Source: a virus
IMG/VR virus record: IMGVR_UViG_3300025586_000032
Span: 1-20,512 of that record
DNA: 20,512 nt
Direction: 5' to 3' (one strand)
Position 1 is the stretch's first letter. The number at the start of each line of letters is the position of its first letter. Positions 4,294-17,447 of the stretch are shown in pieces. Position numbers and translations under genes: made by a program. The notes beneath the pieces are model-generated. The model worked only from the letters and a program-made list of their open reading frames with translations, ran no database searches and had not been told where the DNA came from.

Positions 4294-4374
4294 GTACCCT
4301 TCGATTACTGAATGGTATTCGGAAGATTAATGGGAATTATTTTAACTTATTTGTGCTTATCGTGTCGATTTCTC

Positions 4375-4403
4375 TTGACTTCAAATATCACATATGTTAG
4401 GGT
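4375..4403 (+). promoter_or_regulatory. Possible promoter for the plus-strand SLOG gene
   Basis: TTGACT (4375-4380) lies 17 bp before TAGGGT (4398-4403), a poor -10 with 3 of 6 matches. If used, the transcript would start at about the ATG (4411). The gene is the only one on this strand, so it needs its own promoter, but this assignment is weak. Confidence 0.35.
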
Positions 4404-4410
4404 TTTTATT

Positions 4411-4761
4411 ATGAAAATAGCAATTACAGGTTCACGGAAATTTACAGATTACAACCGCTTTTGCCAAGTGTTAGACAGTTTAGCGCCCACGGAATTTGTA
4501 TCGGGAGGCGCTAAAGGTGCTGACACCCTGGCTGAACGATATGCAGATGAACATAACTTACCCAAAAAGATATTCCTTCCAAAATTCAAAACCGACAAAG
4601 CTACCCCCTACCATCCCCGGTGGTACCATATCAGGAACCGCTCCATTGTGGATTATTCGGATATAGTGGTGGCCTTCTGGGATGGTGTTAGCGGGGGGAC
4701 AAAAAATACCATCGATTATGCCAATAAGGTAAATAAGCGCATCCTGATTATTCACTTTTAG
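4411..4761 (+). CDS. Stand-alone SLOG-fold protein (YspA/DUF2493-like)
   Basis: From ATG 4411 the product has 116 residues. It opens with MKIAITGSRKF, then FVSGGAKGADTLAERYAD, YHPRWYHIRNRSIVDYSD and VAFWDGVSGGTKNTIDYA. These are the marks of the SLOG superfamily, a Rossmann-like fold binding nucleotides or nucleotide-derived ligands, as in YspA-like proteins and related to DprA and LOG. I start at 4411 rather than the longer frame from 4312 because the homologous part begins exactly at MKIAITGSR. It is the only plus-strand gene and converges on the next minus-strand gene with a 14-bp overlap of stop ends, so it looks like an independently acquired moron. Its domain resembles residues 106-218 of the fusion protein encoded at 5112-6080. 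Ligand unknown. Confidence 0.85.
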   Translation: MKIAITGSRKFTDYNRFCQVLDSLAPTEFVSGGAKGADTLAERYADEHNLPKKIFLPKFKTDKATPYHPRWYHIRNRSIVDYSDIVVAFWDGVSGGTKNTIDYANKVNKRILIIHF

Positions 4762-5131
4762 CCTCCCAGCCTTCCACAGTATCGGCCTTCCATTCGTTTA
4801 ACTTTGGTGACTGGGGTTTTCCATACTTTTCAGGGTTCATCTTCTCCAGTAACCATTTAGCTCCAGATGCCCCGCCTTCCGCCGATAATCGCTGCAAGGC
4901 AATTACCTCAGCATGTGCTAAACTTGAACGGATCCCTTCAAACAAATCTTGATAAATATCCTTGTTGTTTGCTTCATAGGAAACCGCTGCTTTTTCCTGC
5001 CATTCAATAGCCTTTCTCTCGGTAATACCGCACGCCGCCGATGCAAGGATAAAATCAGCACCTACGCGCATGTACCCTGTGATTTGGTCAATGATATCAC
5101 TGTTTGGGTCTTCATCGCTGTATTTTTCCAT
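4748..5131 (-). CDS. Terminase-small-subunit-like or HTH DNA-binding protein, 127 aa
   Basis: The protein starting MEKYSDEDPN has a helical N-terminal part with GADFILASAACGITERKAIE, like the HTH of many terminase small subunits, followed by a long helical region and the motif AKWLLEKMNPEKYGK. That A.WLLER..PE.YG ending is common in TerS-like proteins that sit near TerL. I choose ATG 5131 over the longer frame from 5206 because a run of G (AGGGGGG) lies just upstream as ribosome site and the longer version would overlap the preceding gene by 95 bp; at 5131 the overlap is 20 bp. A separate P27-type TerS is present at 3772-4245, so this would be a second DNA-recognition protein or a regulator. 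Moderately sure of the family, unsure of the role. Confidence 0.65.
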   Translation of the reverse strand: MEKYSDEDPNSDIIDQITGYMRVGADFILASAACGITERKAIEWQEKAAVSYEANNKDIYQDLFEGIRSSLAHAEVIALQRLSAEGGASGAKWLLEKMNPEKYGKPQSPKLNEWKADTVEGWEAKSE

Positions 5132-6080
5132 GTACCCCCCTGTGGCAATTATCGCATAACGTTTGGCCGTTGCTGACATCCAGGGCCAATACGCTATTCT
5201 CGGCATAAGGTATTAAGTGATGAACGCATAGGCCTTCCGTTATGTTACAAAAAACGCATCTTGATTTATCCCGCTCCAGAACAGCTTTTAGGAAACGCTT
5301 ATACTCTGGGCTTCTCCTAACATCTTCAGGTAATGATTTTTCATACTGATCCTCAAGTAGGTTTATGGTAAAATCCTTTGTGTCCACCTTTTCTATACCC
5401 GCAATTTCCAATTTATCGCCTTCTGTCTTATAATAAGTGAATGGAATGCCCATTTTCTTAGCCAGCGCCATTTCATTGACTGTGCCCTGGCTAATTCCAT
5501 CATGTAGAAAGATTGCATATTCGCTGTCTTCAAGGACAGCTACAGACCGCCAATGGAATTGACCTTTTAAGCGATGGTGCTGTAAGTGGTGGAGCTTCAG
5601 GGCCAGGCCGTTACCCTTTGATAGCCGCCGGACATAATCACATACGCCGCCAGGTTCACCGTGTGTGACAACCGTGTCTGGGGTGTGTTTTTCAAATTCC
5701 GCCAAAATAACAGTCTTGCATTGCTGGAGAGTGAGAGACCTTGACCCATGAAAAGATATGCGGGTGTGCCTTGTGATGTGAACCACTGGGATACCACGAC
5801 TCTCTGCCCTCACAACTTCGCCCTTAATCCCTTTTGATGCTTCCCACCCGTCGAGACATAAAATACGTAACTCATCACACGCATCCACCATCTTTATTCC
5901 ATGTGATAGCCAGTAGCCTTCTTTAGTTTTTCTGGTTTTGAAATGCTCTGAATACAAAAGCGGGGAATAAAACGGGATACCCTTATTGAATAATCGTTCA
6001 CTGTACTCTATGGCCTTCCGTCTCCGGTAATTCCTGATAGATTCATCGTTATCCCAGAATGGCGCCGCTATATAAATCAC
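5112..6080 (-). CDS. Three-domain fusion: DUF1937/deoxyribosyltransferase-like, SLOG-like, HNH
   Basis: This 322-residue protein has three parts. Residues 1-102 (MIYIAAPFWD, FYSPLLYSEHF, GIKGEVVRAESRGIPV) resemble the DUF1937/nucleoside 2-deoxyribosyltransferase-like fold; the Glu in GEVVRAE near 88 is where the catalytic Glu of such enzymes lies. Residues 106-218 (ISFHGSRSL, VVTHGEPGGVCDYV, FHWRSVAVLEDSEYAIFLHD) look SLOG-like and match the stand-alone protein encoded at 4411-4761. Residues 256-320 form an HNH nuclease-type zinc module: CVFC, VHHLIPY, then LCDNCHRGVHG. A good ribosome site (AAAGGATCC) fixes the start. A link of nucleotide-processing or -sensing to DNA cleavage is inference. 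The fusion could also reflect an HNH element joined by insertion. Confidence 0.8.
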   Translation of the reverse strand: MIYIAAPFWDNDESIRNYRRRKAIEYSERLFNKGIPFYSPLLYSEHFKTRKTKEGYWLSHGIKMVDACDELRILCLDGWEASKGIKGEVVRAESRGIPVVHITRHTRISFHGSRSLTLQQCKTVILAEFEKHTPDTVVTHGEPGGVCDYVRRLSKGNGLALKLHHLQHHRLKGQFHWRSVAVLEDSEYAIFLHDGISQGTVNEMALAKKMGIPFTYYKTEGDKLEIAGIEKVDTKDFTINLLEDQYEKSLPEDVRRSPEYKRFLKAVLERDKSRCVFCNITEGLCVHHLIPYAENSVLALDVSNGQTLCDNCHRGVHGKIQR

Positions 6081-7315: not shown

Positions 7316-7495
7316 GTTACTGAATCCTGCTTTCACCAGCTCGCTGTATTGCGCCCACTTCAACTGTGCGCTAACCTTCGCCATTTCCTTCATTGGCTCC
7401 AATACCTTTTTCAGATCCTCAACCCCTTTCTTCATATCCTCTGGGGTCTTCTTTTCATTATGATCGAACTTGATTGTGAATGGCCGGTCTGTCAT
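7274..7495 (-). CDS. Small phage protein, 73 aa, unknown
   Basis: A helical, Lys-rich protein beginning MTDRPFTIKFDHNEKKTPED with a predicted coiled-coil-like middle (LKKVLEPMKEMAKVSAQLK) and an ending YSELVKAGFSNPQALQLIKD, a pattern common in small phage proteins of unknown function. Its ATG overlaps the stop of the preceding gene (ATGA). Its last 13 codons are duplicated at 6650-6702. No catalytic residues or membrane segments are seen. Confidence 0.65.
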   Translation of the reverse strand: MTDRPFTIKFDHNEKKTPEDMKKGVEDLKKVLEPMKEMAKVSAQLKWAQYSELVKAGFSNPQALQLIKDGLKM

Positions 7496-7842
7496 GTGTT
7501 CTCCTTTCCTATCTCGATTAATCGTTCATTATCCTTAGGCCAATAATATATAGGCAATCCAAATCCCGCCGCCGCCTCCATTTCCTTTACCGCACCAGGG
7601 CTTTTATTCCATCCCGGTATTAAAACAACCATATCAGCAGCCCGGCGCATTAGCTCAATGTCGCCTTTGATCCAAAACTCGTAATCTTGAGCGAACATAT
7701 TGGCTGAATTACTATGTGGAACAAATGGCATAAATCCCATTATTGCAAGTTCCTGGCCTATTTTACAAGCCACCCTTATATTCATAAACTCTCTCTTAAC
7801 CGTGCTCGCCGTGTATGGTCCCGCTACGTAGGCTATTTTCAT
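7492..7842 (-). CDS. DUF4406-like (nucleoside deoxyribosyltransferase-fold) protein
   Basis: This 116-residue protein starts MKIAYVAGPYTASTVKREFM, then FVPHSNSANMFAQDYEFWI, MRRAADMVVLIPGWNKSPGA and KEMEAAAGFGLPIYYWP. The YVAGPY start, the GW..S.GA..E...A...G.P ending and the length fit DUF4406, a family related to nucleoside 2-deoxyribosyltransferases. The Glu in KEMEAA corresponds to the position of the catalytic Glu in that fold. Known members of the fold act on the base-sugar bond of (deoxy)nucleosides or nucleotides; activity here is unproven. It follows the 739-aa modification-type fusion directly (1-bp gap) and overlaps the next gene by ATGA, so it could feed or trim nucleotides for that enzyme. 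Confidence 0.75.
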   Translation of the reverse strand: MKIAYVAGPYTASTVKREFMNIRVACKIGQELAIMGFMPFVPHSNSANMFAQDYEFWIKGDIELMRRAADMVVLIPGWNKSPGAVKEMEAAAGFGLPIYYWPKDNERLIEIGKENT

Positions 7843-7843
7843 T

Positions 7844-10063
7844 TTACAATCTCCCCATCGGCGGATAATTGTCTTTTATTGTCTTCATGTCACCCTTGAA
7901 AAACACTAATATTTTCTGTTCACGTTTCGGGAACTTCCTATAATCAAGTGTGCGTTTTGCGTGTGCTAATCTTGTAAACTCACATTCAAGATAAACAATT
8001 TTATTATATATATGCAATCCCTGTTCTTTAAAAAACAGCTCATGTTCTGCCTCACATCCATAATATGCTCCGGTTTTGTCTCGACTGTCACCTGTCATAA
8101 TAACAAAAAAGCAGTTATCGTTTAGTTTAGATATTGCTCTTTTGTATCCTTTAAATAACGTGTCCCTGAACTCATCATATGTCGGTATGTTGTTTAATTC
8201 ACCTTCAGGTATAATGTTTTCGTAATCAACGTATTTTTCAACTTTATAGTAGGGTGGGCAAGAAAAACATAAATCAAACATACCGTCTGGCTCATACGTT
8301 GAGCTATCACTCTTTATCCAATTTGCACTATGAAGGTCTTGACATATCGCGTTATTAGCATCACACTGATTTTGTCTGATCTCGCTTGCAATATAGTCAA
8401 ACTTATAGCTACCAGTAACAAACCCGAACTGTACGCCCCCACCAAATGGATTATATACACGCTTGCCACCTACTGGCATAAAAAAACGCAATATAACCTC
8501 ACAAGCCACCGGATCAAGTACCGATGCGTTACCGTTAAACGACTTGCCTTTTTTCGTTTTCACTTTTCCGTTCTCTATGACTCTTTTAGTGAGAACTACA
8601 TTGGAATACCCATTACTCCCCTGCCAGCATCCATCACGGGACGCAAACTTTGGATTTGGTATGTTGTGCTTTTCGCCAGCAGCCTCGATTTTTGCGTTCC
8701 ATTCCTTTTTCATCTTGAGCCAATCTGAGCGAGTGGTCGTCCATGCGTTTGTCATGGTTGCATGTGCAAGGCGTTTCATCCTTACATCTTCTAATTTGCC
8801 ATAAACCATATACTCGAACCCACTTAATTTTAGATATGTCTTGAACCCAATGGCTTCAAAGACTTTGGGACATTCAAGGTCATGTTTTGTGCTTACAGTC
8901 ATTATCATAGGGTAGCCGAAAGTGTTTTGATCAATTATTTTGTTGACCATTTGGCTATAAATATCCTTGTCTTTCCTGTCCAGTTCCATAGCTGACTGTA
9001 AAAGGCAAAATTCTTTGGCCTCATGGTTGACCTGGAATGTGAAAAACCCGCTGAACTCATCGTTGATTTTCAGTATAATAGCTGAATGGATTTGCATATT
9101 TTTTCTTGCTGCCCTGTATGCAACCTTGTCTCTGATTGCTAAACCGGCTACAAGTTCTTCATACCCTGATCCTATGACGCTTTTGGCGTATTCAAATTCA
9201 ATTTTATTTGTAAACATATCAATCTGTGCCCTGGAAGATGGGTCGTATTTAATTTTAAACATATCCCCCTGTTTCTTATTCATTTTGTACCCTCCAATCC
9301 AAATGTTTTTAAAATCAACTCCACATTGATCTGAACACGTATTACATGGCCCTAAATATGCCGAATGTGTTGAAATGCTTACAGTTGACCCTCCGCCAAG
9401 GTTTTTGTGTTTACACGTTATTATATCACCTGAAACAACACGATGATCAGACTTTGGGATTCTAAGCGGGTTGTTGATAATGTCTGTATTCTCAAATATA
9501 TTATCCTGAATGTGTTTTAATTCACGGCCTTTATCTGTATTCCCAAATTTTGCAGAAACCACTCTCAATACAGAATTTACGCCTAATTCCTTAAGCCATT
9601 TAAACGTACTTACTCTATACTCTATTTCATCTTCAGTGTCTATAGGACTCGTTGAGGTATTAACCACTGCACCGCTTTTCCTGAGTGCTTTAGCGTGATT
9701 ATCAGACATGGGGATCCAATGTTTGGTAACAACCACCGGGATCTTAAACTTTCCCAACCATTCACAAATCTTAATAGTGTAATCCCAATCATACGAAGGA
9801 TCTCCCATCGTTCCTATTCTGAACCACGGCGACTTATGACGTATAACAACCCTTTCAATGTTTTCCCAACTGTATTCACTTCGTACAATAGATTTAGAAA
9901 AATCCATTCCATATAAGAATGCCATCTTCGAAGCGTAGCATAACCCGTAACACCCGCCATTGGGGTATTTTTTCATTCCCAAACTACACCCCTTTACCGT
10001 GTCAACATCCAAAACGCCTTTACGGTTTGTGGTGGCTGTTAGAACTGGTAGGTATTGCCGCAT
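7844..10063 (-). CDS. Three-domain fusion: radical-SAM-like, GNAT-like, DNA methyltransferase
   Basis: From ATG 10063 the product has 739 residues; it overlaps the upstream stop by ATGA, so the TTG at 10066 is not needed. Residues about 25-250 have Cys at GCSLGM and GGCYGLCYA and a further set CNTCSDQCG near 240-247, with barrel-like strands (FRIGTMGDPSYDW, PVVVTKHW); this recalls radical-SAM-like phage proteins with iron-sulfur sites. Residues about 285-425 look GNAT-like, ending in KVFEAIGFKTYL. Residues about 430-726 are a DNA methyltransferase: YNPFGGGVQFGFV (AdoMet binding, motif I) then CFSCPPYY (motif IV), with VIMTGDSRDKTGAYYG. The set suggests modification of bases beyond simple methylation. 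The methyltransferase call is strong, GNAT good, radical-SAM moderate. Confidence 0.8.
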   Translation of the reverse strand: MRQYLPVLTATTNRKGVLDVDTVKGCSLGMKKYPNGGCYGLCYASKMAFLYGMDFSKSIVRSEYSWENIERVVIRHKSPWFRIGTMGDPSYDWDYTIKICEWLGKFKIPVVVTKHWIPMSDNHAKALRKSGAVVNTSTSPIDTEDEIEYRVSTFKWLKELGVNSVLRVVSAKFGNTDKGRELKHIQDNIFENTDIINNPLRIPKSDHRVVSGDIITCKHKNLGGGSTVSISTHSAYLGPCNTCSDQCGVDFKNIWIGGYKMNKKQGDMFKIKYDPSSRAQIDMFTNKIEFEYAKSVIGSGYEELVAGLAIRDKVAYRAARKNMQIHSAIILKINDEFSGFFTFQVNHEAKEFCLLQSAMELDRKDKDIYSQMVNKIIDQNTFGYPMIMTVSTKHDLECPKVFEAIGFKTYLKLSGFEYMVYGKLEDVRMKRLAHATMTNAWTTTRSDWLKMKKEWNAKIEAAGEKHNIPNPKFASRDGCWQGSNGYSNVVLTKRVIENGKVKTKKGKSFNGNASVLDPVACEVILRFFMPVGGKRVYNPFGGGVQFGFVTGSYKFDYIASEIRQNQCDANNAICQDLHSANWIKSDSSTYEPDGMFDLCFSCPPYYKVEKYVDYENIIPEGELNNIPTYDEFRDTLFKGYKRAISKLNDNCFFVIMTGDSRDKTGAYYGCEAEHELFFKEQGLHIYNKIVYLECEFTRLAHAKRTLDYRKFPKREQKILVFFKGDMKTIKDNYPPMGRL

Positions 10064-10359
10064 CAATCCGCTTTCCCATCCTTCAGAAACGGTTTCCCGA
10101 ACTCATGTCCGCAGGCTTGGCAAATATAAATCTCCATCTTAATCAACTGGTCTTTCCCGGTTGGGTTCTTTGGCGATAACGCCGGGAAGGTTCTAAGTCG
10201 GTAAGCCATATTAAATAATTCTCCGCGCCCACACGCCTTACACTTCGTTTCCAGGGTATCCGCTTCATTAAGATTGACTTGTTGTGGTTGTCCTCTGCCT
10301 TGCATAATTGCCTCCTTTCTGCGTTGTTCAAAAGTTCCTCTATTCTTTGCCTCTCCCAT
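10063..10359 (-). CDS. Zinc-ribbon protein, 98 aa
   Basis: The start MGEAKNRGTFEQRRKEAI is a form often seen in small phage proteins. A zinc ribbon follows: CKACGRGE near residue 41 and CQACGHEF near residue 82, separated by about 40 residues. It probably binds nucleic acid or a partner protein. I choose ATG 10359 over a longer frame from 10395 because AAAGGAGAATAAA precedes it. Its stop overlaps the ATG of the 739-aa fusion (ATGA), so the two are translated together. Confidence 0.7.
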   Translation of the reverse strand: MGEAKNRGTFEQRRKEAIMQGRGQPQQVNLNEADTLETKCKACGRGELFNMAYRLRTFPALSPKNPTGKDQLIKMEIYICQACGHEFGKPFLKDGKAD

Positions 10360-11802: not shown

Positions 11803-12014
11803 TTACCTTGCCATGCCGTGCCTTGCCGTGCCTTGCCTCACCGGACCCTGCCGGACCCTACCCCACCGGATCAGCCATGCCACACCTTGCCAGACCATGC
11901 CGCACCCCGCGCCACCGTACCCCGCCATATCGGCCTTGCCACACCTTACCTAACCTTGCCCTACCTCACCATGCCTCACCAAACCGGGCCTGACCCGACC
12001 CCGCCTCATCAGCC
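11803..12014. repeat. Degenerate pentamer array A (NNRCC)
   Basis: About 42 five-base units with a free first two bases, purine at base 3 and CC at 4-5 (for example TTGCC ATGCC GTGCC). The phase is reset by the 9-mers GGATCAGCC (11868-11876), ATATCGGCC (11927-11935) and TCATCAGCC (12006-12014), that is, a unit with ATC followed by a four-base unit. On the transcript the pattern is GGYNN. It lies between the 185-aa gene and a small membrane protein gene and gives long false open frames on both strands. Confidence 0.92.
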
Positions 12015-12018
12015 ACGT

Positions 12019-12576
12019 CTATTCATTAACGGCATTCTTATATTCCACATCAGCAACAAGCTTGACCTTCTTCTTTTTCTTGGCCGTCACAACTGCCTGG
12101 ACTTCATCAATCGCCTTGAAAACAGGCTTTAGCTCTGAATATTCTCGATGTCTTTTCTTCCATCCGGCAAGTTCATTCAACGCCTTATCAATAACCTGTT
12201 CTCTATAATCAGCCGAATTGACAACCGCACTTAATGAGATATATCCCCGGTCTTTTGACGCTTCAACAACCTGGATGTTGTGAAACATCTTGATCGTTTT
12301 ATTTTCCTTGTTTCCGTTGTCAATGATTTCGACCTCAATATGGTTCATGAGTTGCCGGGCTTGATGCATTCGATATTTTGCCCCCGCTTCAGAATTATCC
12401 CACTCAAAATAATCGTGTATGACAGATCTTTTCTTTTTGGCCTTATCCACGACTATGGAGGGAGTTAAAACACCCTCTTTTTTTTCAATCTCGGATAAAC
12501 ATTCACCGTATGCCTGGACCTTTTTTTCGCTGAATGGCGCACCTGGAGCCGCCACATAAATCGTTGTTATTTCCAT
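12019..12576 (-). CDS. Phage protein of unknown function, 185 aa
   Basis: The middle carries LTPSIVVDKAKKKRSVIHDY followed by FEWDNSEAGAKYRMHQARQL, a pattern found in a widespread phage family of unknown function. The rest is Lys-rich and helical, with a basic tail (AKKKKKVKL). No catalytic set is visible. A strong run of G (AGGGGGACAAT) precedes the ATG. Pentamer arrays lie on both sides of the gene. Its usual neighbours in phages, from memory, are recombination or replication genes; here the next gene upstream is the 228-aa protein, which is consistent. No function is assigned. Confidence 0.65.
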   Translation of the reverse strand: MEITTIYVAAPGAPFSEKKVQAYGECLSEIEKKEGVLTPSIVVDKAKKKRSVIHDYFEWDNSEAGAKYRMHQARQLMNHIEVEIIDNGNKENKTIKMFHNIQVVEASKDRGYISLSAVVNSADYREQVIDKALNELAGWKKRHREYSELKPVFKAIDEVQAVVTAKKKKKVKLVADVEYKNAVNE

Positions 12577-12604: not shown

Positions 12605-12985
12605 TTGCCTTACCTCGCCATGCCGTACCCCGCCGCGCCGCACAGCGCCCCGCCTCATCAGCCTTGCCCAACCAAACCTCACCGCACCGCACCTCGCCTT
12701 ACCAAACCCCGCACCGCCTTGCCTCACCAGATCAGCCTCACCTTACCAAACCTTACCCCGCCATATCCTGCCACACCGCGCCTCACCTCTTCAGCCGTGC
12801 CTTGCCCAACCAAACCGGACCTGACCCCGCCTCGCCTGACCCTGCCTCGCCATATCAGCCCTACCGCACCGCGCCCCACCTCACCAAACCAAACCTCACC
12901 TCGCCGCACCCCGCCATACCTCGCCCCGCCTTACCACGCCAAACCCCACCTTGCCCCACCGTGCCGGGCCTCACCCAACCCCGTC
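12605..12985. repeat. Degenerate pentamer array B (NNRCC)
   Basis: About 77 five-base units of the same type as array A. The phase-resetting 9-mers are TCATCAGCC (12655-12663), AGATCAGCC (12729-12737), TCTTCAGCC (12788-12796) and ATATCAGCC (12852-12860). One further ATATC unit (12763) is not followed by a four-base unit. Copies of the 9-mer lie 74, 59 and 64 bp apart. It lies between the 228-aa and 185-aa genes and is separated from the former by a probable terminator. Confidence 0.93.
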
Positions 12986-15572: not shown

Positions 15573-16291
15573 ATGTCCGCCTTGGCTATCACCATTTTTT
15601 GTTCTAAATACTGTATGAATTTTTCTTTTTGTTCTCTTGTTATGTCCTTAACTGTCTTAACTTTATACGGTTTTAATAATCTTTTCCAATCAGGTTTTAT
15701 GATTTTTAATTCTTTTTTCAATGCTATCATTTTTGTGAGCAAATCTTTATCTTCCACTTGTCTACCGAGTATTAATCCTGCTTTTTCAAGATGATCAAAC
15801 CTGAAAGTCAAAAAGCTCTGATTGCTTCTTTTATTTAAACCTCTAACCACAGAAGGGCATTTTATTACAAGGCGATGTAAAAGACCAACTGTATTAAATG
15901 CAATCCAATCGAGTATTTCACCATTCTTATCATCATAATATCCATACACGAAAATACCTGCATTCAACTTGAATAGTTCACTCTTTATATTTGTTGCATG
16001 ATTCCATTCGGTAATCGTTACATCTTGGTATTTCATAAATTTTTCACGCCTAAAACGTTCCTGTATTATAAATTCTATATCAGCCTTGAACCACTTGACT
16101 CTTACTTTAACTATTCTATCAATTGCCATTTCTCCATCAAGTATTTTTTCTTTGTTTCCCATCGAAAGACTTGTTGATTTAAATGTCAACTGATCCTTAT
16201 CAACATTAAACAACATTGGATATATTTGAGACTGTGACGCAGTATGAGCTAAGTCTGAAAATAATTGATTTTTATTACTGTATGGGGTCAT
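15569..16291 (-). CDS. Possible PD-(D/E)XK-type nuclease or similar, 240 aa
   Basis: I do not firmly recognise this protein. It begins MTPYSNKNQLFSDLAHTASQ and has MAIDRIVKVRVKWF at about 55-68, then ADIEFIIQERFRREKFMKYQ at 70-89, followed by DVTITEWNH and NAGIFVYGYYDDKNGE. Acidic residues D58, D71 and E78 with nearby Arg recall the spaced acidic set of PD-(D/E)XK nucleases, and the block QERFR...F..Y.DVTI is shared, to my memory, with phage proteins of this kind. It overlaps the methyltransferase gene by 17 bp, so a restriction-modification-like pair is worth testing. The C-terminal 70 residues are basic and helical. The start ATG has GAGG upstream. Confidence 0.45.
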   Translation of the reverse strand: MTPYSNKNQLFSDLAHTASQSQIYPMLFNVDKDQLTFKSTSLSMGNKEKILDGEMAIDRIVKVRVKWFKADIEFIIQERFRREKFMKYQDVTITEWNHATNIKSELFKLNAGIFVYGYYDDKNGEILDWIAFNTVGLLHRLVIKCPSVVRGLNKRSNQSFLTFRFDHLEKAGLILGRQVEDKDLLTKMIALKKELKIIKPDWKRLLKPYKVKTVKDITREQKEKFIQYLEQKMVIAKADI

Positions 16292-17447
16292 TTCTCACCG
16301 CCTCTATGTGAGATACGCTTTCCCATCTCTCAATAATATCAGCACAAAAAGAAGTTGAAATCTCACCACCAATGCAAGCCAGGTCCATCTTTTCACACGC
16401 CAATAACGTTTGGCCACTACCAAGAAAAGGGTCAATAATCGTATCATTTTCCTCTGTGAATTTATCAAAAAGCAATCCCAAAAATTCAAAAGGTTTTCGT
16501 CCCTTGTGTGAGGTTTCTTGTGTTTCAGATGTTTTAATGGCACATGAAATAACATCTTGAGAATTGCGATACACCGATTTATCAGAAAACAAAGCAGTGT
16601 ATATCCAATTTCCAAAACCTACGGCCCCCCGTGTCATACCGTTTGTAATTACACCGGCTATGCTCCACACATACGGCATATTTGTAACCATCATGAAATC
16701 CTTTATTGAAACAATACCTGGCGTTACTGCAACCACTTCAGCATATTCCGACAAATAGTCATGGCTCCAATTGAAATTATTATCCCATTTCGCAGCTTTT
16801 GCATTATATGGAGGGTCTGCGAATGCGAATGCGCATTTACTTAACTGGCTTGTGAATGGATCTTGTGACGTGTCCCCACAGTATAACCTATGCCTCCCCA
16901 AATTCCACCATTCTCCCTCTTTAGGGTTTTTCTTGGTTGTCTTGTGTAACTTTCCATCTATTCCTGAAACAACCTCAATTATTCGGTTTTTTTCTTGCTT
17001 CGATTCCTCCTTCTTCTTTTTCTTGGCTACCTTATAAAGCCCTGAACTTGTCAATTCTTTCTTCTTTCCTTTTGTCTCCACAATATATGCCTCAAAAGTC
17101 TCTTCCGGGATAGAAGCTATCTCTTGCCAGCGTGAAGATTGCGATTTTGTTATACCAAGGTCTGAGAGTTTGGGGGGCTCTTTAAAACTGGTAACATCGT
17201 GCGACCGGTTTTTGACTGGCCTACCGCCTTCATGTTTCGCTTGTTCTGGTATAATCTCCCCGGCCCTACGCTCCGCCCGAATCTTTATCTCCGCACACTG
17301 GTTTTGCATCTCAAGGGACTCGCCAGCCTGCTTTGCGTACATTCGCAATGCCTCGGCCTTATCTCTAATCTCTTTCACTTCGTCAATGTTTGTAGCCAAC
17401 ACCAATTCATTTCGTGCTTTATTGAAATGTACCAAATTCATTTCCAT
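16275..17447 (-). CDS. DNA methyltransferase (N4-cytosine or N6-adenine), with ParB-like N-terminus
   Basis: This 390-residue protein has an N-terminal helical part (DEVKEIRDKAEALRMYAKQA, IKIRAERRAGEIIP) like phage ParB-type proteins fused to methyltransferases, a Lys-rich linker, and a methyltransferase with WNLGRHRLYCGDTS, ADPPYNAKAAKWD (motif IV at 211-214), KGRKPFEFLGLLF, and IIDPFLGSGQTLLACE (motif I, about 337-352). Motif IV before motif I marks the beta class, which methylates the amino group of adenine (N6) or cytosine (N4). The target is unknown. The start has AAAAGGAGATAAAAT before it. The next gene overlaps it by 17 bp. Phages use such enzymes to avoid restriction or to mark their own DNA. 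Confidence 0.9.
   Translation of the reverse strand: MEMNLVHFNKARNELVLATNIDEVKEIRDKAEALRMYAKQAGESLEMQNQCAEIKIRAERRAGEIIPEQAKHEGGRPVKNRSHDVTSFKEPPKLSDLGITKSQSSRWQEIASIPEETFEAYIVETKGKKKELTSSGLYKVAKKKKKEESKQEKNRIIEVVSGIDGKLHKTTKKNPKEGEWWNLGRHRLYCGDTSQDPFTSQLSKCAFAFADPPYNAKAAKWDNNFNWSHDYLSEYAEVVAVTPGIVSIKDFMMVTNMPYVWSIAGVITNGMTRGAVGFGNWIYTALFSDKSVYRNSQDVISCAIKTSETQETSHKGRKPFEFLGLLFDKFTEENDTIIDPFLGSGQTLLACEKMDLACIGGEISTSFCADIIERWESVSHIEAVRNDPIQ

Follow-up and report, generated by a model that had tools for sequence, protein, structure and literature searches.

A widespread phage module of radical-SAM-like, GNAT-fold and amino-methyltransferase domains as a candidate DNA hypermodification system

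What does a virus do with a single protein that seems to combine a radical-SAM-like, a GNAT-like, and a methyltransferase part? The question was raised by a gene of a 20.5-kb virus record, which was analyzed over its whole length and is called the window below. An earlier note, made from the DNA alone, had read the gene product as a candidate DNA hypermodification enzyme. The ORF is a real gene and was found on the minus strand at the position claimed in that note (Table 1). Its ATG, which is preceded by a TTG at 10066, shares one base with the TGA of an upstream zinc-ribbon gene (TGATG), and a DUF1937/DUF4406-type gene begins 1 bp past its stop codon. The motifs quoted in the note (GGCYGLCYA, CNTCSDQCG, FEAIGFKTY, FGGGVQFGFV, and SCPPYY) were all found in the protein. 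They are not due to chance, since the cysteine sets are kept in relatives and none of 68 proteins composed of a GNAT-fold and a methyltransferase part (GNAT-MTases) departs from NPFGGG or CPPYY. Searches of Pfam, NCBIfam, and PDB sequences with the whole protein gave nothing usable, and the C-terminal third matched PHROG DNA methyltransferases. Structure prediction, fold search, and relatives confirmed the proposed trio of domains, and in other phages the radical-SAM and GNAT-MTase parts were found to be kept together in more than 100 distinct loci.

Table 1. Features of the three-domain gene and its product in the window.
Feature	Position	Strand	Basis or remark
Three-domain gene	7844..10063	minus	739 aa counted from ATG at 10063
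Type I radical-SAM-like domain, residues 2-255	9302..10063	minus	AlphaFold model, PDB fold matches, own ORF in many phages
N-terminal Cys motif C27-x11-C39-x3-C43	9938..9988	minus	kept in 55-56/56 relatives; putative [4Fe-4S] ligands
GTMGDP segment	9797..9814	minus	putative counterpart of radical-SAM GGE motif
C-terminal Cys set C241-x2-C244-x3-C248	9323..9346	minus	invariant in 56/56; putative role
GNAT-fold domain, residues about 286-423	8798..9211	minus	secondary structure; fold shared with viral GNAT proteins
GNAT pyrophosphate-binding loop position	8960..8986	minus	conserved glycine absent among 68 relatives
Amino-methyltransferase-type domain	7847..8587	minus	PHROG 498/12517; PF01555 in 57/68 relatives; fold
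Motif I NPFGGGVQFG, remodelled SAM pocket	8423..8452	minus	NPFGGGVQ[FM]G in all GNAT-MTases shown
Motif IV SCPPYY, amino-MTase catalytic motif	8246..8263	minus	CPPYY invariant in 68

The N-terminal domain was modelled by AlphaFold with a pLDDT of 93.1 and a pTM of 0.90. When the model was compared with the PDB, radical-SAM enzymes came first (AprD4, EpeE, HydE, PFL-AE), with a modest best E-value of 6.6e-4 and TM-scores mostly between 0.37 and 0.48; such values below 0.5 speak for membership in the same superfamily, not for close kinship. The partial TIM barrel of the radical SAM superfamily (PF04055) is present in the model, at these moderate TM-scores. A set of 56 relatives, 31-64% identical to the N-domain of the window protein, showed a fully conserved C-x11-C-x3-C motif, which differs from the canonical CxxxCxxC. 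This motif and the C-terminal C-x2-C-x3-C are the likely cluster ligands, and the latter set (C241, C244, C248) might form a second metal or cluster site. R83, G85, P90, and W94 are invariant in the 56 relatives, and we propose the GTMGDP segment as the counterpart of the GGE motif. A weak DUF5131 match was obtained with only 3 of the 56 N-domains. Fold and conserved cysteine sets agree with the N-terminal radical-SAM-like domain claimed earlier, but the canonical spacing is absent.

The middle part of the protein has a GNAT fold, matching GNAT proteins in BFVD with TM-scores of up to 0.73 by target length, and Tyr104 in alignment numbering, which corresponds to residue 370 of the window protein, does not vary among the 68 GNAT-MTases. 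The acyl-CoA pyrophosphate loop Q/R-x-x-G-x-G/A is degenerate in all 68. Because no glycine of the loop is conserved across these members, simple acyl transfer from CoA by this domain appears doubtful, and because of the same degeneration the domain could be a structural or DNA-binding part. The earlier note had postulated an acyl-transfer fold and had named the lack of an acyl-CoA site as an argument against its own reading; the fold was found but the loop was not, so that this counterargument applies in part. An intact loop (KGNGLA) is present in a tandem second GNAT-(MTase) paralogue at one locus (L024:5254-5871), which matched Acetyltransf_1 weakly, below the Pfam cut-off, and the diaminobutyrate acetyltransferase EctA model with an E-value of 3.8e-9, below the model cut-off. 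A search for relatives of this paralogue found none.

Elp3 of the Elongator tRNA modification system, in which a radical SAM domain is likewise followed by a GNAT domain, carries out acyl-radical chemistry on the wobble uridine of tRNA. The identical domain order, the GNAT fold, the existence of a paralogue whose CoA loop is intact, and the coupling of a radical SAM protein with the GNAT-MTase in every judgeable locus (see below) would fit an analogous chemistry on DNA: the GNAT domain would hold an acyl donor, the radical-SAM domain would generate a radical on the acyl carbon, which would then add to the base, and the MTase domain would serve base flipping and site choice. This would be a specific form of the explanation that we favor below. 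The curated Elp3 model TIGR01211, however, was matched neither by the window protein (E ≤ 1) nor by its radical-SAM relatives at the loci L007 and L050 (E ≤ 0.1), and membership in the Elp3 family was therefore rejected. Moreover, the CoA loop is lost across the 68 proteins, and Elp3-like chemistry on DNA is rather unlikely. The protein also differs from Elp3 in its additional MTase domain, and there is no sign of an RNA substrate. No Elp3 sequences above the cut-off were found in host assemblies.

The earlier note had also drawn a parallel to Mom of phage Mu, a GNAT-fold protein that acts in phage DNA modification and makes N6-carbamoylmethyladenine. If the GNAT domain were a Mom relative forming this base, the other domains would be accessory. 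Its position next to an adenine-type MTase would suit this idea, and in some phages Mom-family genes also adjoin a DNA methylase gene. Comparison with 12 Mom-family proteins, however, revealed no detectable sequence-profile similarity (hhalign probability 0.4%, 13 columns), so that kinship with Mom was rejected; Mu Mom also acts without a radical SAM or MTase domain and is not known to need radical SAM chemistry. Formation of the Mom base by this protein is thus extremely unlikely.

The C-terminal methyltransferase claimed earlier was clearly recovered. PF01555 (N6_N4_Mtase) was matched by 57 of the 68 relatives (best E-value 4.3e-6), with the window protein itself below Pfam reporting, and profile match, fold matches, and a [DNS]PP[YF]-type motif, in the family-level form [ST]CPPYY, identify an N6/N4 amino-DNA methyltransferase. 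The same phage encodes a second, separate N6_N4-type DNA methyltransferase (window 16275-17447; PF01555, E-value 2.1e-14). Similar MTases, about 30% identical and with the CPPY motif, are the phage ParB-fused amino-DNA-methyltransferases such as Listeria B054 gp77 and Enterococcus phiFL3A gp36. These carry ParB instead of GNAT and have no radical-SAM partner, and motif I of the plain ParB-MTases reads DPFAGGSVRG whereas the window protein has NPFGGGVQFG. In a third clade, motif I is mostly D-[PCT]-F-[AS]-G-D-[TS]-x-F-G and the next gene usually encodes an S-adenosylmethionine decarboxylase (PF02675). The Arg of the plain ParB-MTases is replaced by Phe or Met both in the GNAT-MTases and in the decarboxylase-paired clade, and these two group together in a tree with a support of 0.905. 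This branch of the MTase family has presumably departed from the use of SAM as a plain methyl donor; the remodelled motif I casts doubt on methyl transfer from SAM to DNA by the C-terminal domain. A SAM decarboxylase was looked for near the GNAT-MTases, and none was found.

The decarboxylase-paired clade was considered separately. At the loci L234, L235, and L247-L326, a ParB-fused DNA MTase is followed directly by the S-adenosylmethionine decarboxylase in most cases. Among unique relatives, which are not independent of one another, the Asp of motif I (GD[TS]xFG) goes together with the decarboxylase: 51 have both, 21 neither, and 5 the Asp alone, while no decarboxylase occurs with a clear non-Asp motif I and one decarboxylase locus has an unreadable motif. 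For phage P2559S, the gene product has been demonstrated to be a true AdoMet decarboxylase (PMC9992855). This pattern predicts that the decarboxylase-paired ParB-MTases would aminopropylate phage DNA from decarboxylated SAM, a second testable prediction from the same MTase family. In Mycobacterium phage Vincenzo (L238:1406-2275) an MTase relative adjoins a PLP-dependent enzyme, and in Pseudanabaena phage Pam4 (L244:1012-3501) one lies within a single ORF annotated as PLP-dependent enzyme; perhaps this enzyme is another SAM- or group-tailoring partner. Wider counts of PLP-enzyme neighbors were discarded as an artefact of a ParB-like stretch in one query, only Vincenzo and Pam4 being real.

To describe the gene neighborhood, 221 loci were collapsed to 125 distinct ones, 116 of which contain a GNAT-MTase; L023 and L024 are truncated at contig ends and lie outside the 114 judged loci. 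A radical-SAM partner was present in 114 of these 114 loci: 47 have it fused to the GNAT-MTase, 17 have it as the directly adjacent 5′ gene, and in 50 it follows directly on the 3′ side (39 type I and 11 type II). These numbers include split ORFs at L173 (counted as fused) and at L003 and L219 (counted as 5′ adjacent), the other type I partners being fused in 46 and 5′ in 15 loci. In many phages the type I protein is encoded by its own gene adjoining the GNAT-MTase gene. Where it is missing, the ORF directly after the GNAT-MTase encodes a different radical SAM protein (type II) with a CxxxCxxC motif, which matches PF04055 above the curated cut-off. Type I and type II profiles were colinear over 226 columns with a probability of only 5%, and the type I model matched one type II ORF at 24 bits. 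The type II gene is split at L076 and lacks the cluster region at L085, a MAG locus, and in view of these two cases some phages may do without the radical-SAM partner. In the GNAT-MTase tree, approximate counts gave nine changes for nine type II tips, which are scattered like random labels, and four changes for the fused or split state as against 14-20 in shuffles. The type II partners look like separate replacements of type I in all nine placed tips.

The radical-SAM protein is the one constant partner of the GNAT-MTase, the next commonest neighbor occurring in 16 of about 120 loci. The module of radical-SAM, GNAT-fold, and MTase parts is well supported, because all judgeable loci are coupled, the partner was repeatedly replaced, and no other neighbor is conserved. 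The tight unit with the DUF4406 and zinc-ribbon genes proposed in the earlier note was not confirmed. These genes abut the three-domain gene in the window, but relatives of the two genes near the module were found only in one near-identical phage contig, apart from one weak DUF4406 match, and both were rejected as members of the unit. The coupling also bears on the idea that the protein is an ordinary N6-adenine or N4-cytosine methyltransferase, in which the GNAT fold is a DNA-binding or structural stand-in for ParB and the radical SAM part does a separate job. The intact catalytic CPPYY, the lost acyl-CoA loop, and the several relatives that are plain ParB-MTases are in line with this simple explanation. 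It does not account for a radical SAM protein that is retained in all judgeable loci through fusion and repeated replacement, nor for the GNAT-less MTase relatives (L234-L326), which have neither type of radical SAM nearby, nor for the remodelled motif I, and we regard plain methylation as quite unlikely.

One IMG/VR scan yielded 151 stretches encoding the protein. It is also present on six contigs from genome assemblies, whose assignments are Desulfobacterales, Smithella, Desulfobacula, Spirochaetes, Massilibacteroides, and an unnamed bacterium. The named groups are mostly anaerobes, which would suit an oxygen-sensitive radical-SAM enzyme, with the caveat that viral contigs can be mis-binned. 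Neither the radical-SAM part nor the GNAT part had a match among 50,697 phage records even at an E-value of 0.01, and only the MTase part found distant relatives; no isolated phage in this set has the first two domains, and the nearest isolated-phage relatives are ParB-DNA-MTases. Literature searches for the radical-SAM/GNAT/MTase architecture found none.

DNA is the presumed substrate, because the kin are ParB-DNA-MTases and because type I loci lie beside genes for TAGT, ParB, and PAPS reductase. Type I radical SAM genes without a GNAT-MTase were found beside a TAGT DNA glycosyltransferase (L211, L218), beside ParB and PAPS reductase (L215), and beside ParB and another radical SAM protein (L216). 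The type I protein may thus serve several DNA-modification systems. Near the GNAT-MTase itself, TAGT occurs at two loci (L135, L143), and TAGT and PAPS neighbors are few. An enzyme modifying tRNA or rRNA, which would alter host translation or counter tRNA cleavage, is very unlikely in view of the ParB-fused DNA methylases as closest MTase relatives and the TAGT DNA glycosyltransferase among the neighbors, even though RNA modification makes use of all three domain types and a tRNA methyltransferase came first when the GNAT-MTase part was compared with the PDB; such matches are generic.

Our best reading is that the module is probably a phage DNA-base hypermodification enzyme adding a group larger than methyl to an exocyclic amine. 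From the earlier proposal DNA hypermodification is kept, but simple CoA acyl transfer and the unit with DUF4406 and zinc ribbon are not. The C-terminal domain, derived from ParB-type amino-DNA-methyltransferases, would bind DNA and act on the exocyclic amine of a base (N6 of adenine or N4 of cytosine), the radical-SAM domain would supply a radical step, and the GNAT-fold domain would position or tailor the added group. In one scheme, the radical-SAM and GNAT parts would make or finish a donor, SAM-derived or modified, from which the MTase domain would transfer the group; in the other, the MTase domain would methylate first, and the radical-SAM domain would then functionalize the methyl carbon. 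Both schemes fit the evidence. The larger-than-methyl product would shield phage DNA from host nucleases.

Modification of phage DNA by means of a SAM analogue together with a tailoring enzyme has a characterized precedent in CmoA/CmoX/CmoY (PMC12783734). By analogy with this system, the remodelled pocket suggests that a non-methyl group is transferred or tailored. In both cases a phage DNA MTase homologue would work with dedicated enzymes that supply a SAM analogue or carry out tailoring afterwards, often with ParB nearby, but CmoX is a cytosine-C5 enzyme that uses carboxy-SAM and is followed by an ATP-dependent ligase, in a pathway without radical SAM or GNAT (PMC12783734). The module further resembles the thymidine hypermodification pathways in joining radical SAM proteins and acetyltransferases in the decoration of phage DNA bases; it differs from them in being anchored on an amino-MTase, and genes of the 5-hydroxymethyluridine type were not recognized in the window. 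These pathways start from 5-hydroxymethyluridine and employ radical-SAM isomerases and acetyltransferases on 5-hmdU.

The window has some further features. Arrays of degenerate pentanucleotides, in which CC recurs every 5 bp and the GC content reaches 62% (11806-12005 and 12608-12980), flank a gene at 12019-12576, the longest chain comprising 25 units at 12859-12980; L020 and L042 likewise contain GGNNN arrays. DUF4406/nucleoside-deoxyribosyltransferase-like genes are located at 5112-6080 and 7492-7842, one of them carrying an HNH region at its C terminus; a SLOG/DprA-like gene lies at 4312-4761. A role of these genes in nucleotide signalling or counter-defence is possible.

Many new DNA bases come from phages. 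Radical chemistry carried out on DNA through an amino-methyltransferase scaffold has not been described in the literature searched. It is a tentative but serious possibility that this family, with more than 100 loci and no cultured member, makes a base not yet described by means of radical chemistry, a GNAT fold, and an amino-MTase scaffold that no longer uses ordinary SAM as methyl donor. The module is compact, being encoded as one fused protein or two overlapping genes, and is common in uncultured phages.
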